Shown here: in pieces, positions 27,858 through 55,020 of the stretch | Layout of the letters: each line of letters opens with the position of its first letter | Numbering within the stretch: the first letter of the stretch is position 1 | Assembly (NCBI RefSeq): GCF_016907715.1 | Contig: NZ_JAFBCM010000001.1 | Coordinates: 3,472,001 to 3,536,000 of the forward strand | Direction: 5' to 3' | Origin: Tenggerimyces flavus | GTDB lineage: Bacteria > Actinomycetota > Actinomycetes > Propionibacteriales > Actinopolymorphaceae | DNA: 64,000 nucleotides | Program-made: the position numbers and the translations under genes | Notes under the pieces: generated by a model | What the model was told of the DNA's origin: nothing | The model's input: only the letters and a program-made list of their open reading frames with translations | Databases searched by the model: none

Positions 27858-27888
27858 GCTCACGGGGGGTTCAGGCGGCGGCAAAACA

Positions 27889-27935
27889 AGACCTGCCGGA
27901 ACAGCTTCACGGGGGAGCTGTTCCGGCAGGTCTTT
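27889..27935. terminator. Strong bidirectional terminator
   Basis: A perfect 18-bp stem, AGACCTGCCGGAACAGCT (27889-27906) with its complement at 27916-27933, and a 9-nt loop. TTTCTT follows on the plus strand and TTGTTTT on the minus strand, so it serves both the small membrane gene and the convergent rpmB. Confidence 0.93.
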
Positions 27936-51113: not shown

Positions 51114-51884
51114 ATGGACCTCACCACGCTCTGGTTCGGCATCGTCGTGTTCTTCTGGACCGGGTTCTTCGTCCTCGAAGGCTTCGACTTCGGCGTCGGC
51201 GTGCTCGCCCGCCTGCTGGGCCGCACCGACCGCGAGCGCGCCGCGTACCTCGAGACGATCGGCCCACACTGGGACGGCAACGAGGTCTGGCTGGTCGTCG
51301 CGATCGGCGCGATGTTCGCCGCGTTCCCGGCCTGGTACGCCGAGCTGCTCAGCACGTCCTACCTGCCCGTCGTCCTCGCGCTCGTCGGCCTGATCGTCCG
51401 CGGCGTCGCGCTGGAGTGGCGCGGCAAGCGGGACGACGCGCTCTGGCGGCGCCGCTGCGACCTCGGCATCGCGCTGGGCTCGGCGATGGTCCCGCTCGTC
51501 CTGGGCGCCGTGCTCGTCGGCGGCGCGACTGGCAACTTCGCGTACGCGATCGCCGGCGGCGTCGTGCTGCTCGCGCTCTGCCTGGTGCACGGTGCGGCGT
51601 TCCTCGCCCTGCGTACGAGCGGCGAGCTCCGTGCCCGCGTCCCGCACACCAGCAGGGATGCGCTGTTCTTCGCCGCGACGAGCGTGGTCATCGCGGGAAC
51701 GATCGTCGCGCTGTTCGTCACCAGCTTCCCGCGAGCGATGCCAGGGCTCGCGTACGGGGATGCGGCCGCATCCCCGTACGCGTTGAAGATTCTGACCTGG
51801 ATCGGTGCTGCCTGCGTCCCGCTCGTGCTTGCCTACCAGGGGTGGAGCTACTGGGTCTTTCGCCGTCGCGTGGCCACGTCATGA
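51114..51884 (+). CDS. cydB: Cytochrome bd oxidase subunit II, short form
   Basis: A 256-aa protein; family members have about 330-380. The first five helices (LWFGIVVFFWTGFFVLEGFDFG, DGNEVWLVVAIGAMFAAFP) and the last (ALKILTWIGAACVPLVLAYQGWSYWVFRRR) are well conserved. Between ALRTSGELR and FVTSFP about 55-60 residues are missing, which normally hold two helices (TM6-TM7), and a loop of about 25 residues after TM4 is also short. The reading frame is intact and the loss of an even number of helices keeps topology. Whether the oxidase works is an open point. The stop overlaps the cydD start (ATGA). Confidence 0.9.
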   Translation: MDLTTLWFGIVVFFWTGFFVLEGFDFGVGVLARLLGRTDRERAAYLETIGPHWDGNEVWLVVAIGAMFAAFPAWYAELLSTSYLPVVLALVGLIVRGVALEWRGKRDDALWRRRCDLGIALGSAMVPLVLGAVLVGGATGNFAYAIAGGVVLLALCLVHGAAFLALRTSGELRARVPHTSRDALFFAATSVVIAGTIVALFVTSFPRAMPGLAYGDAAASPYALKILTWIGAACVPLVLAYQGWSYWVFRRRVATS

Positions 51885-53431
51885 GACCGCTCGACCCGCG
51901 GCTGCTGAGGTACGCCAAGGCCACCGCGCCGTACGTCGCCGCATGCATACTCGTCGGCGCCGCCACCGCCGGGCTGGTCATCGCGCAGGCGACTCTGCTC
52001 GCTTCCGCGATCGCGCACGTCACGACCGCTGGACTCGTCCCGCTCGCGGCCATCGTGCTCGGCCGCGCGCTGCTCGCCTGGGGCCAGGAGGTCGCGGCTC
52101 ACCGCGCGTCGGCCGCAGTCAAGGCGAGCTTGCGCGAGCAGCTGGTACGCAAGGCCCTCGCGCTCGGCCCGCACTGGCTGGCGAACGAACGCAAGGCCGC
52201 CTTGACAACGCTCGCCACCCGCGGACTCGACGCACTCGACGGCTACTTCGCCCGCTACCTCCCGCAGCTCGTCCTTGCGGTCGTCGTTCCCGCGGCCATC
52301 GTCGTCTGGCTGGTCGCAAACGACCTCATCGCCGGCATCACGGTCGCGATCACGCTGCCGCTGATCCCGGTCTTCATGGCGCTCGTCGGTCTCGCGACCA
52401 GGGATCGCGCGAACCGCAGCTGGCGAGCGCTCGCCGTCCTCGCCCATCACTTCGCCGACGTCGTGGCTGGCCTGCCCACGTTGAAGATCTTCGGCCGCGC
52501 CAAGACGCAGGCCGAGGCGATCCGCCGCGTCGGCGCCCAGCACCGGCGCGAGTCGCTGTCGCTGTTGCGCGTCGCGTTCCTGTCCGGGCTCGTGCTCGAG
52601 CTCGTCGCCACGTTCTCCGTCGCACTCGTCGCGGTCGGCATCGGCGTACGACTCGTCGAGGGACGGCTCGACCTCGAGACTGCGCTGCTCGTGCTGATCC
52701 TCGCGCCCGAGGCGTACGTCCCGCTCCGGCTCGTCGGCGCGCACTTCCACGCCAGCGCGGACGGACTGGCCGCGGCCGACGAGGCGTTCCGCGTCCTCGA
52801 GACGCCCGCCCTCCAAACTGTGGGGTTCTGGTACCGACACGCCGGCGTGTCGCGACCAGAACCCCACAGTCTGGGGGCCTGGCTGGTGGTGGAGGGGTTG
52901 ACCGTGCAGTATCCGGGCGACCCGGAGCCGGTCGTGGAGGACCTGTCATTCGAGGTCCGCCCAGGCGAGCTCGTCGCGCTCGCCGGACCGAGCGGCGCCG
53001 GCAAGTCCAGCGTGTTGAACGCGTTGGTCGCGACCTGGCGTACCCAGGTCGGCTGGGTGCCGCAACGCCCTTACCTGCTTGACGGTTCGGTCGCCGACAA
53101 CGTGGGCTTCGGCAACCCGGCCGGCGACGTCGAACGAGCCCTCGCCGACGCCGGCGCACAAGAGCTCGACCCCGCGACCCAGGTAGGCGAAGGCGGCAAG
53201 CGGCTCTCCGAAGGCCAGCGCAGGCGTGTCGCGCTCGCCCGGGCGTTGATCCGCGGCGTCCCCGTCCTGCTGCTCGATGAGCCGACCGCCGGCGTCGACG
53301 CCGAGACCGAGGCCGACATCGCCGCGATGCTACGGCGATCCGGCAGGACCGTCGTGCTCGTCACCCATCACCCAGCCCTGCTCGCTGCCGCCGACCGCGT
53401 CGTGGACGTGCGACCATGCGTTTACGCCTAG
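51881..53431 (+). CDS. cydD: CydD-type ABC exporter subunit, compact form with an inserted palindrome
   Basis: A 516-aa protein (relatives about 550-590). Six membrane helices fill residues 15-300. The ATPase has Walker A GPSGAGKSS near 368-376, signature LSEGQRRRVALARAL and Walker B LLLDEPTAGVD. Only about 20 residues separate the Walker A lysine from the Q-loop glutamine (WVPQRP), against about 45-50 normally, so a beta-hairpin is missing. Residues about 311-332, at the membrane/ATPase linker, are encoded by a long palindrome (52811-52876). CydDC exports cysteine/glutathione for cytochrome bd assembly. It overlaps both neighbours. Confidence 0.92.
   Translation: MRPLDPRLLRYAKATAPYVAACILVGAATAGLVIAQATLLASAIAHVTTAGLVPLAAIVLGRALLAWGQEVAAHRASAAVKASLREQLVRKALALGPHWLANERKAALTTLATRGLDALDGYFARYLPQLVLAVVVPAAIVVWLVANDLIAGITVAITLPLIPVFMALVGLATRDRANRSWRALAVLAHHFADVVAGLPTLKIFGRAKTQAEAIRRVGAQHRRESLSLLRVAFLSGLVLELVATFSVALVAVGIGVRLVEGRLDLETALLVLILAPEAYVPLRLVGAHFHASADGLAAADEAFRVLETPALQTVGFWYRHAGVSRPEPHSLGAWLVVEGLTVQYPGDPEPVVEDLSFEVRPGELVALAGPSGAGKSSVLNALVATWRTQVGWVPQRPYLLDGSVADNVGFGNPAGDVERALADAGAQELDPATQVGEGGKRLSEGQRRRVALARALIRGVPVLLLDEPTAGVDAETEADIAAMLRRSGRTVVLVTHHPALLAAADRVVDVRPCVYA
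52811..52876. repeat. Palindromic element inside the cydD coding sequence
   Basis: Perfect 16-bp arms at 52817-52832 (ACTGTGGGGTTCTGGT) and 52855-52870 enclose an 18-bp perfect palindrome, CGACACGCCGGCGTGTCG (52835-52852). Pairing extends with one mismatch to 52811 and 52876. It keeps the frame and encodes a peptide like GFWYRHAGVSRPEPHS. The opposite strand encodes nearly the same peptide. Confidence 0.92.
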
Positions 53432-55020
53432 CGTTCGCCGCGATCGCGGGTACGGCCGCGGCCGGCAGCGCCGTCGCGATGGTCGCCGCCTCCGCTTGGC
53501 TGATCTCCCGCGCCGCCGAGCACCCGCCCGTCCTGATGCTGATGGTCGCGATCGTCGGCGTCCGCGCGTTCGGCCTCGCCCGCGCCGTCCTCCGGTACGT
53601 CGAGCGCCTGCTCGGCCACGACGCCGGCTACCGCCTGCTCGACGCGCTGCGGACGCGGTTGTACGACAAGCTCGAACTACTCGCGCCGAACGGGCTCGCC
53701 GCATACCGTTCCGGCGACCTGCTGGCCAGGCTCGTCGACGACGTGGACCTGCTGCTCGACCTCGTCCTCCGCGTCGCCCTGCCGATCGTCGTCGCGAGCC
53801 TCGTCGGCGCCGGAACCGCAGTCCTGCTTGGCCTTCTGCTCCCGGTGGTCGGAGCGGTCACCGGCGCAGCCGTCGGCCTTGCTCTCGTCGGAGTGCCGCT
53901 CCTCGTCGCCTGGTCCGCGCACCGCGCCGAGCGCGCCGTCGCGCCGGAACGCGGCCGCCTCAGCGCCGCCACCACCGAGCTGCTCGAGGCCGCTCCCGAG
54001 CTCATCGCGTTCGGCGCCACCGCCCACGCCATCGACAAGGTGGTCGACAGCACGAACCGGCTGCGCGCCGCCGAACGCCGATCGAGCTGGAGCGTCGGCC
54101 TCGGCAACGGCCTGCTCACGCTGCTGACCGGTGCCGCCAGCATCGCCGGCATCGCTGTCGGCGTCCCCGCTGTACGCTCCGGCACCCTCGACCAGGTCCT
54201 CCTGGCCGTCGTCGTACTGACGCCATTGGCGCTCGCCGACGTATTCGCCTCGCTCGCACCAGCCGCCGCGACGGCGACCCGCGGCCACACCGCCCTCGCC
54301 CGAGTCCGCGACGTGCTGCGAGCGAAGGAACCGGTCAGCGAGCCAGACCAGCCCACCACCGTCCCGGCGGGGCCGTACCACCTGAACGTCGAGAACCTCA
54401 GCGTCCGCTGGACCGACGACGGCCCGAACGTGCTCGACGGGTTCGGCCTCGACCTGTCACCAGGGCGGAAGGTCGCGCTGATGGGCCCGAGCGGTTCCGG
54501 CAAGAGCACGCTCGCGCACGCGCTCGTCCGCCTCGTCGAGCCGGTCAGCGGCAGGATCACGCTCAACGGCGTCGACCTCACCGAGCTCCGACCGGATGAC
54601 TTACGGCAGGTCGTCGGCCTGTGCCAGCAGGACACGTACGTCTTCGACACCACCGTCGCCGAGAACGTCCGCTTGGCGAGGCCGGACGCCACCGACGCGG
54701 AGGTGCAGGCAGTCCTCGACCGCGTACGCCTCCCGCTCGACCTCGAAGCCAGGGTGGGGGAGCACGGCGACCGCATCTCCGGCGGCGAACGACGCAGACT
54801 CGGCCTCGCGAGATGCCTGCTCGCCCGAACGCCCATCCTCGTGCTCGACGAGCCGACCGAGCACCTCGAGGACGACCTGGCCGACGCGATCCTGCACGTG
54901 ATCCTCACGGCAGCACGCGATCAAACCATCCTGCTGATCACGCACCGGCCACCCCCGGCGGGACTCGTGGACGAAATCATCGTGCTGGGCAAGGCTTTCT
55001 CGGGGGTAGGGTCCCGGTAG
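53416..55020 (+). CDS. cydC: CydC-type ABC exporter subunit
   Basis: A 534-aa protein from ATG 53416, overlapping cydD by 16 nt. Membrane domain residues 1-290 include AAEHPPVLMLMVAIVGVRAFGLARAVLRYVERL, shared by CydC proteins. The ATPase has GPSGSGKST near 358, Q-loop GLCQQDTYVFD, signature ISGGERRRLGLARCLL and Walker B ILVLDEPTEHLE. Spacing between these motifs is normal, unlike cydD. Partner of CydD in thiol export for cytochrome bd maturation. Confidence 0.95.
   Translation: MRLRLAFAAIAGTAAAGSAVAMVAASAWLISRAAEHPPVLMLMVAIVGVRAFGLARAVLRYVERLLGHDAGYRLLDALRTRLYDKLELLAPNGLAAYRSGDLLARLVDDVDLLLDLVLRVALPIVVASLVGAGTAVLLGLLLPVVGAVTGAAVGLALVGVPLLVAWSAHRAERAVAPERGRLSAATTELLEAAPELIAFGATAHAIDKVVDSTNRLRAAERRSSWSVGLGNGLLTLLTGAASIAGIAVGVPAVRSGTLDQVLLAVVVLTPLALADVFASLAPAAATATRGHTALARVRDVLRAKEPVSEPDQPTTVPAGPYHLNVENLSVRWTDDGPNVLDGFGLDLSPGRKVALMGPSGSGKSTLAHALVRLVEPVSGRITLNGVDLTELRPDDLRQVVGLCQQDTYVFDTTVAENVRLARPDATDAEVQAVLDRVRLPLDLEARVGEHGDRISGGERRRLGLARCLLARTPILVLDEPTEHLEDDLADAILHVILTAARDQTILLITHRPPPAGLVDEIIVLGKAFSGVGSR

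Follow-up and report, generated by a model that had tools for sequence, protein, structure and literature searches.

The locus raises the question of how a nearly perfect palindrome came to lie, in frame, within the gene of a conserved protein, CydD, and whether it belongs to a family of sequences that spreads. We conclude that it is probably one member of a family of mobile repeats, around 60 bp long, fully palindromic and non-autonomous, that would be moved in trans by some enzyme and are known so far from this species only. Most of what is known of small palindromic repeats comes from proteobacteria and pneumococcus; the present genome is that of a high-GC actinobacterium with several nested palindrome families, in which no Y1 transposase was found. 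The 49 near-identical copies, their placement at switches in strand composition and the 118 unfilled places of one outer hairpin family make both the hairpin mover and its choice of sites directly testable, and cydD itself is a concrete case in which a likely mobile repeat became a protein linker.

The palindromic unit within cydD

The window, that is the whole 64-kb stretch of DNA that was analysed, holds cydD at 51881-53431 of the plus strand. The encoded ABC transporter CydD (516 aa) has its best matches among solved chains in CydD proteins, and its relatives are found in Actinopolymorpha and Kribbella, the closest being an Actinopolymorpha protein with 59% identity. The genes upstream we take to be cydA and cydB, and the downstream gene (53416-55020, plus strand), an open frame that overlaps the end of cydD, is presumably cydC.

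The palindrome consists of a perfect left arm (ACTGTGGGGTTCTGGT; 52817-52832, plus strand), a perfect 18-bp core palindrome with a central GCCGGC (52835-52852), whose central dinucleotide varies within the family, and a perfect right arm (52855-52870, minus strand), which is the exact reverse complement of the left one. With 16 nt per arm and 2 nt on either side of the core this amounts to 54 nt, in which the ring of 2 bp between arms and core is the only mismatch. The exact arms around an 18-bp palindrome, reported in an earlier note on this DNA, are therefore real. The insert described there was said to be in frame and 66 bp long; the frame is correct, but the 66 bp include 3 flanking bases on each side. 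Comparison with the other copies places the boundaries at CAAACT...AGTCTG, so that the repeating unit is 60 bp long (52814-52873), coincides exactly with codons 312-331 of cydD and represents one of 49 copies in the genome. Because the ends of the palindrome coincide with codon boundaries, both strands indeed specify nearly the same peptide (VGFWYRHAGVSRPEPHSL for the plus and MGFWSRHAGVSVPEPHSLE for the minus strand). The cydD palindrome ranked first among the inverted repeats of the window, a second palindrome scan of the 64 kb returned it together with one other, and the same scan returned none in 200 kb of triplet-shuffled sequence of the same genome. At 27888-27934 the window carries a further inverted repeat, with perfect 19-bp arms around a 9-nt loop, which is unrelated in sequence to the palindrome family.

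Copies in the genome and their variation

Copies were searched for by requiring both 13-nt arms at a fixed spacing of 48 nt with at most 2 mismatches. In this way, 49 copies were recovered from the single contig of 8,519,422 bp (46 of them with both arms perfect, the other 3 with a single mismatch), and the reversed control pattern gave no match. A covariance model built from 22 stand-alone copies recovered the same 49 (98 strand hits of 64 to 98 bits); nothing weaker came up in this genome up to an E of 1, where scoring covered 150 of the 6,353 first-look candidates. The many dispersed copies for which the earlier note had proposed to look are thus present. On the basis of their flanks the copies fall into two classes: 22 stand alone, including the one in cydD, and the other 27 are embedded as the core in a unit of around 115 bp. 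The stand-alone flanks are largely unrelated, as only 9 of the 946 pairs that can be made from the 44 flanks match at no fewer than 9 of their first 12 bases; at further offsets 0-6 pairs reach the same level, and some pairs, like those of the copies at 2213761 and 2861296, have around 11 bases in common.

The 13-nt arms are nearly invariant (3 of 1,274 letters in the 49 copies deviate from the consensus), and most of the variation affects the edges, the centre and a ring of around 4 bp internal to the arms. Within the stand-alone set four base pairs were changed on both sides with pairing retained (e.g. AGC/GCT, ACA/TGT and AGG/CCT), and 5 of the 22 copies, including the one in cydD, have mismatched ring triplets. 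The dinucleotide at the centre reads CG in 20 copies and TG or CA in 27, with 2 exceptions, a pattern that would fit deamination of cytosine in an exposed hairpin tip or in a methylated GCCGGC. A Fisher test for arms that are more conserved than the core (p 1e-5) was withdrawn, as it had counted 1,372 arm letters instead of the 1,274 in the 26 arm columns and as a one-base shift in one copy (L073) accounts for many of the core deviations. Decayed copies were not seen, apart from one that is half-deleted, and this near-absence may reflect a recent spread or selection for function.

The near-invariance of the arms and the preservation of the dyad via paired changes would also suit a dyad that was spread by copying and is retained because a regulatory or chromosome-organising protein binds to it. 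We regard this as very improbable: the copies are unevenly spread, with for instance none at 6.05-7.45 Mb, the unit was found in none of 390 other genomes of the order (see below), and 60 bp is long for a dimeric binder.

The linker of CydD

The position at the linker between membrane and ATPase domains was correctly assigned, with an ETP motif before the palindrome and the first ATPase strand after it. The linker stretch comprises 50 aa; of 47 relatives (with some genomes counted twice, as named and as unnamed loci) one likewise has 50, and the other 46 have 38-43 aa. Without the 60 bp it would comprise 30 aa, which is below the value of all 47. The insert is therefore not clean: as the palindrome replaces around 12 linker residues, the net gain is only around 8 and not the 22 or so claimed before. 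The arrival of the palindrome together with the loss of around 36 bp of the old linker would have yielded a readable linker of 20 codons; which of the two events came first, and whether the present CydD is functional, are matters of inference. Readability is not a general property of the family, considering that 16 of the 22 stand-alone copies carry a TAG stop in the frame used by cydD, where the cydD copy has TAC; the latter belongs to a group of five with no stop in any of the six frames.

Relatives differ in this linker, and one could therefore suppose a natural variable linker that is palindromic by chance. Given the 48 further copies of the unit outside cydD and the lack of the palindrome in CydD of all 47 relatives, this explanation is refuted by copy number and hardly conceivable. 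By the same observations the palindrome is neither single-copy nor part of a linker conserved among related proteins, which is what the earlier note had named as evidence against its proposal.

The notion of a mobile REP-like unit that is tolerated within genes stands as far as the REP-like form and the dispersal are concerned. The tolerance is unproven, as the ATPase domain is 22 residues short: a gap at 53030-53038 (plus strand) reduces the distance between Walker A and Q-loop to 23 residues, versus 45 in 43 of the 47 relatives, so that the insertion cannot be called harmless and the protein may be a changed or decaying one. The predicted model (mean pLDDT 76.9, pTM 0.51; 13 sequences) has the ATPase strands and helices in place, and residues 311-330 are below 50 in confidence.

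Placement relative to genes and strand composition

Genes were called without annotation, using a home-made codon-usage gene finder that was trained on the window. Although 87% of a 400-kb sample is coding, 21 of the 22 stand-alone copies are intergenic. Eighteen of these 21 lie within 60 nt of the 3' end of a gene, versus 16% of the possible placements, and gaps between convergent genes hold 8 of them, versus 12% of the placements. Likewise, 26 of the 27 larger units are located outside called genes and the remaining one lies in a weak ORF, which leaves cydD as the only confident in-gene copy. A general entry into genes is thus not what we found, with just 1 of 22 stand-alone copies within a called gene.

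The flanks of the stand-alone copies have a peculiar composition: read towards the palindrome, from either side, they are rich in C and poor in G. To the left of 19 copies (8 convergent and 11 tandem) the fraction of C is 0.54-0.56 and that of G 0.17-0.19, versus 0.26-0.33 (C) and 0.31-0.34 (G) around the midpoints of ordinary gaps; two divergent copies have a weaker skew (0.41 for C and 0.25 for G). A skew of such strength is absent at ordinary hairpins of this genome and of one relative, albeit few were compared (21 each). Expressed as a score for the switch from C-rich to G-rich on the top strand, the median of the 22 stand-alone copies is 0.57, a value that is reached by 0.15% of the sample positions, and 18 of the 22, including the cydD copy, fall within the top 5% of positions. 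The copies also exceed the best-scoring positions of 172 individual gaps behind genes (median 0.30; p 1.5e-5), although around 5% of these gaps do reach 0.57. The skew fades by about 80-120 nt.

The copy in cydD shows the same pattern, with a C-rich, G-poor left flank (52784-52813) and a G-rich, C-poor right flank (52874-52903; both plus strand). Its switch score is 0.63, versus a mean of 0.00 and a maximum of 0.30 at the aligned place in the 47 relatives. In codon terms the right flank is only mildly unusual, with 9 of 13 fourfold codons ending in G versus 39.5% (p 0.04). We also considered that stand-alone copies were inserted into the tips of existing hairpins, but the complementarity of the flanks beyond the 60 bp is not significant (0.44 versus 0.40, with 129 of 2000 permutations at or above; 6.68 versus 6.56, p 0.31), and only the bias in composition stands.

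The placement behind genes is suggestive of another explanation, in which selection keeps the palindromes for terminating transcription in both directions or stabilising 3' ends, and their spread is secondary. A C-rich, G-poor RNA that runs into a strong hairpin from both sides, as the flanks of the 19 copies and the energy of the consensus hairpin (-51.3 kcal/mol) would provide, could stand for Rho-dependent termination with a hairpin as backup, and the concentration near 3' ends and between convergent genes agrees with this. There is also a precedent, as a terminator role was proposed for the SPRITE elements of pneumococcus (PMC3049150). Nevertheless, in most copies the stem is followed by AGTTT only and not by a U-run, the far side is G-rich even at tandem genes, where termination needs no such side, and the in-gene copy of cydD shares the flank pattern, though termination would cut the protein. 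We therefore consider selection as terminators unlikely as the primary explanation. Both roles may nonetheless be combined, in that the family would have spread as a mobile repeat and survived where a terminator is harmless or of some good. The skew switch itself may represent a preference for certain targets or a Rho-type signal that was retained, or it may have another cause.

Occurrence in other genomes and databases

Among 391 genomes of the order, the unit was found (<=3 mismatches) in its own genome only, and the fixed-spacing arm search recovered no copy from seven members of the family. Neither did exact searches of the named GTDB genomes (15-nt arms; the own genome may be outside that set) and of viral contigs (13-nt arms). 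Similarity searches gave no match to the stand-alone unit in phages and none to the larger unit in plasmids, and 5 of the 49 copy loci (20,240 bases) had no Rfam match at gathering score. The covariance model produced a weak hit in the relative G006 (28.6 bits, E 0.007), a terminator-like hairpin with a similar GGGGTTC stem, which is a hint, and only that, at the origin of the palindrome family; in G001 a weaker hit was obtained (22.4 bits, E 0.3). A literature search for this family yielded no title of relevance.

Probable mobility and comparison with known systems

The repeat is a discrete unit, it occupies largely unrelated sites, it is absent from relatives, and its arms have changed in pairs. 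Taken together, this led us to a mobile hairpin that is moved in trans. Around 50 sites would have been reached through copy-and-insert events, with the enzyme acting in trans; considering the paired arm changes and the central dinucleotides, the copying was presumably enzymatic and proceeded via a hairpin or single-stranded form. The repeat would land, or survive, at points where the composition of the top strand switches from C-rich to G-rich, for the most part no more than 60 nt past the end of a gene.

One candidate for such an enzyme is the Y1 (HUH) transposase of the RAYT type that moves classical REPs and REPINs. Like these, the present repeats are short, form hairpins, are dispersed and lie mainly in intergenic DNA, and two relatives possess Y1 transposases. 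However, a search with PF01797 (E<=0.001) gave no match in this genome, whereas the same search as a control gave matches in 5 of 14 genomes, including 9 in G001 and 7 in G003 (L193-L202), both members of the family. Moreover, a REP is a tagged hairpin (PMC3733652), whereas the present unit is a full palindrome. By eye no GTAG or CGTC tag was recognised at its ends outside the stem; the units end in CAAACT...AGTTTG with variable neighbours, and GTAG occurs only within the stem of some copies. Unless the genome lost the enzyme once the repeats had spread, a REP moved by a RAYT is therefore largely refuted, and we deem it highly unlikely; as no Y1/RAYT transposase was found, the family was not filed as a RAYT-mobilised REP.

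The repeats also resemble MITEs in being small and non-autonomous with inverted ends. No autonomous parent element of this genome that shares the arms was found, and inspection of the flanks by eye revealed no recurrent target-site duplication. One candidate parent was a stretch between two partnerless 13-mer arms, inverted and 11 kb apart, but the right one turned out to be the half-deleted copy and the left one a lone 13-mer with no similarity beyond it.

The earlier note had likened the insert to the palindromic elements of Rickettsia (RPEs). This likeness, judged from published descriptions and not from RPE sequences, applies to the palindromic and dispersed nature, the presence of several families per genome and the in-frame location within a conserved protein gene, as in codons 312-331 of cydD. 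It does not apply to how often genes are entered. According to PMC2229807 and PMC10969869, RPEs measure 105-146 bp and nearly half of a first set of 44 resided in ORFs; here the unit is 60 bp, called genes hold just 1 of the 22 stand-alone copies, one of the 27 larger units is found within a (weak) ORF, linker residues were replaced, and the phylum is a different one. With the SPRITE, BOX and RUP elements of pneumococcus (PMC3049150), the repeats have in common the restriction to a species and its near relatives, the enrichment between convergent genes and the insertion into each other. SPRITEs are in addition found near the 3' ends of genes, like the 18 of 21 intergenic stand-alone copies here, but they are AT-rich with a long U-rich tract, whereas the present repeats are GC-rich and have only TTT in place of such a tract.

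Given that the family lacks a defining feature of RAYT-mobilised REPs and one of SPRITEs, as well as the in-gene frequency of RPEs, it was filed under none of these. By analogy, RPEs would be the closest counterpart for the in-gene copy, REPs for size and form, and SPRITE, BOX and RUP for placement and nesting. The best reading is that of a lineage-specific variant of the REP/RPE/SPRITE kind.

The larger unit, outer hairpins and other palindromes

Around 24 of the 27 larger units an outer hairpin could be discerned (at least 16 of 24 positions paired), as compared to 3 of 108 control placements. At least three families are represented among these outer hairpins; their stems differ and their loops are similar. 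The larger derivative of around 115 bp resides in the loops of these other palindromes. For one of the outer families, 118 places were found in which the left stem is followed by an uninterrupted loop (59 per strand), and this same family was found in none of the seven members of the taxonomic family. In L086, L070, L062 and L045, the left and right hairpins are from different families or one side is absent, which suggests recombination between copies.

A larger unit devoid of the palindrome was not found when gaps of 0-12 nt were allowed between its halves, and the palindrome therefore belongs to the larger unit as it now exists. A looser search with the right half returned 29 places, namely the 27 copies, the half-deleted copy and one place with 3 mismatches. 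The half-deleted copy, the fiftieth, is situated in L152 around 15189 (genome position 1708188); it is a larger unit that lost half of the palindrome, apparently between two TCGCGA repeats.

A more specific version of the mobile hairpin can be formulated, in which transposition re-forms one hairpin arm from the other, targets C-rich-to-G-rich switches and hairpin loops, and occasionally supplies a protein with a ready linker that is compatible with the frame. The arms would change in pairs because one is re-formed from the other with each move, and palindromes would be nested within palindromes because hairpin loops are targets. We did not find a transposition system of this kind in the literature on actinobacteria, and in this full form the proposal is rather doubtful.

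Finally, the genome contains at least four further families of long palindromes (e.g. L153-L172 and L041-L089), with stems GAATGAAGGGCACCTTCATTC, GGGTCGGGGGCACCC, GAATGAGGGCGTCCC and GTGATCATG. The first of these was looked for in seven relatives and found in none. A 400-kb sample held 12 long palindromes, one of which is of the family studied here, versus 2 in the relative G003.
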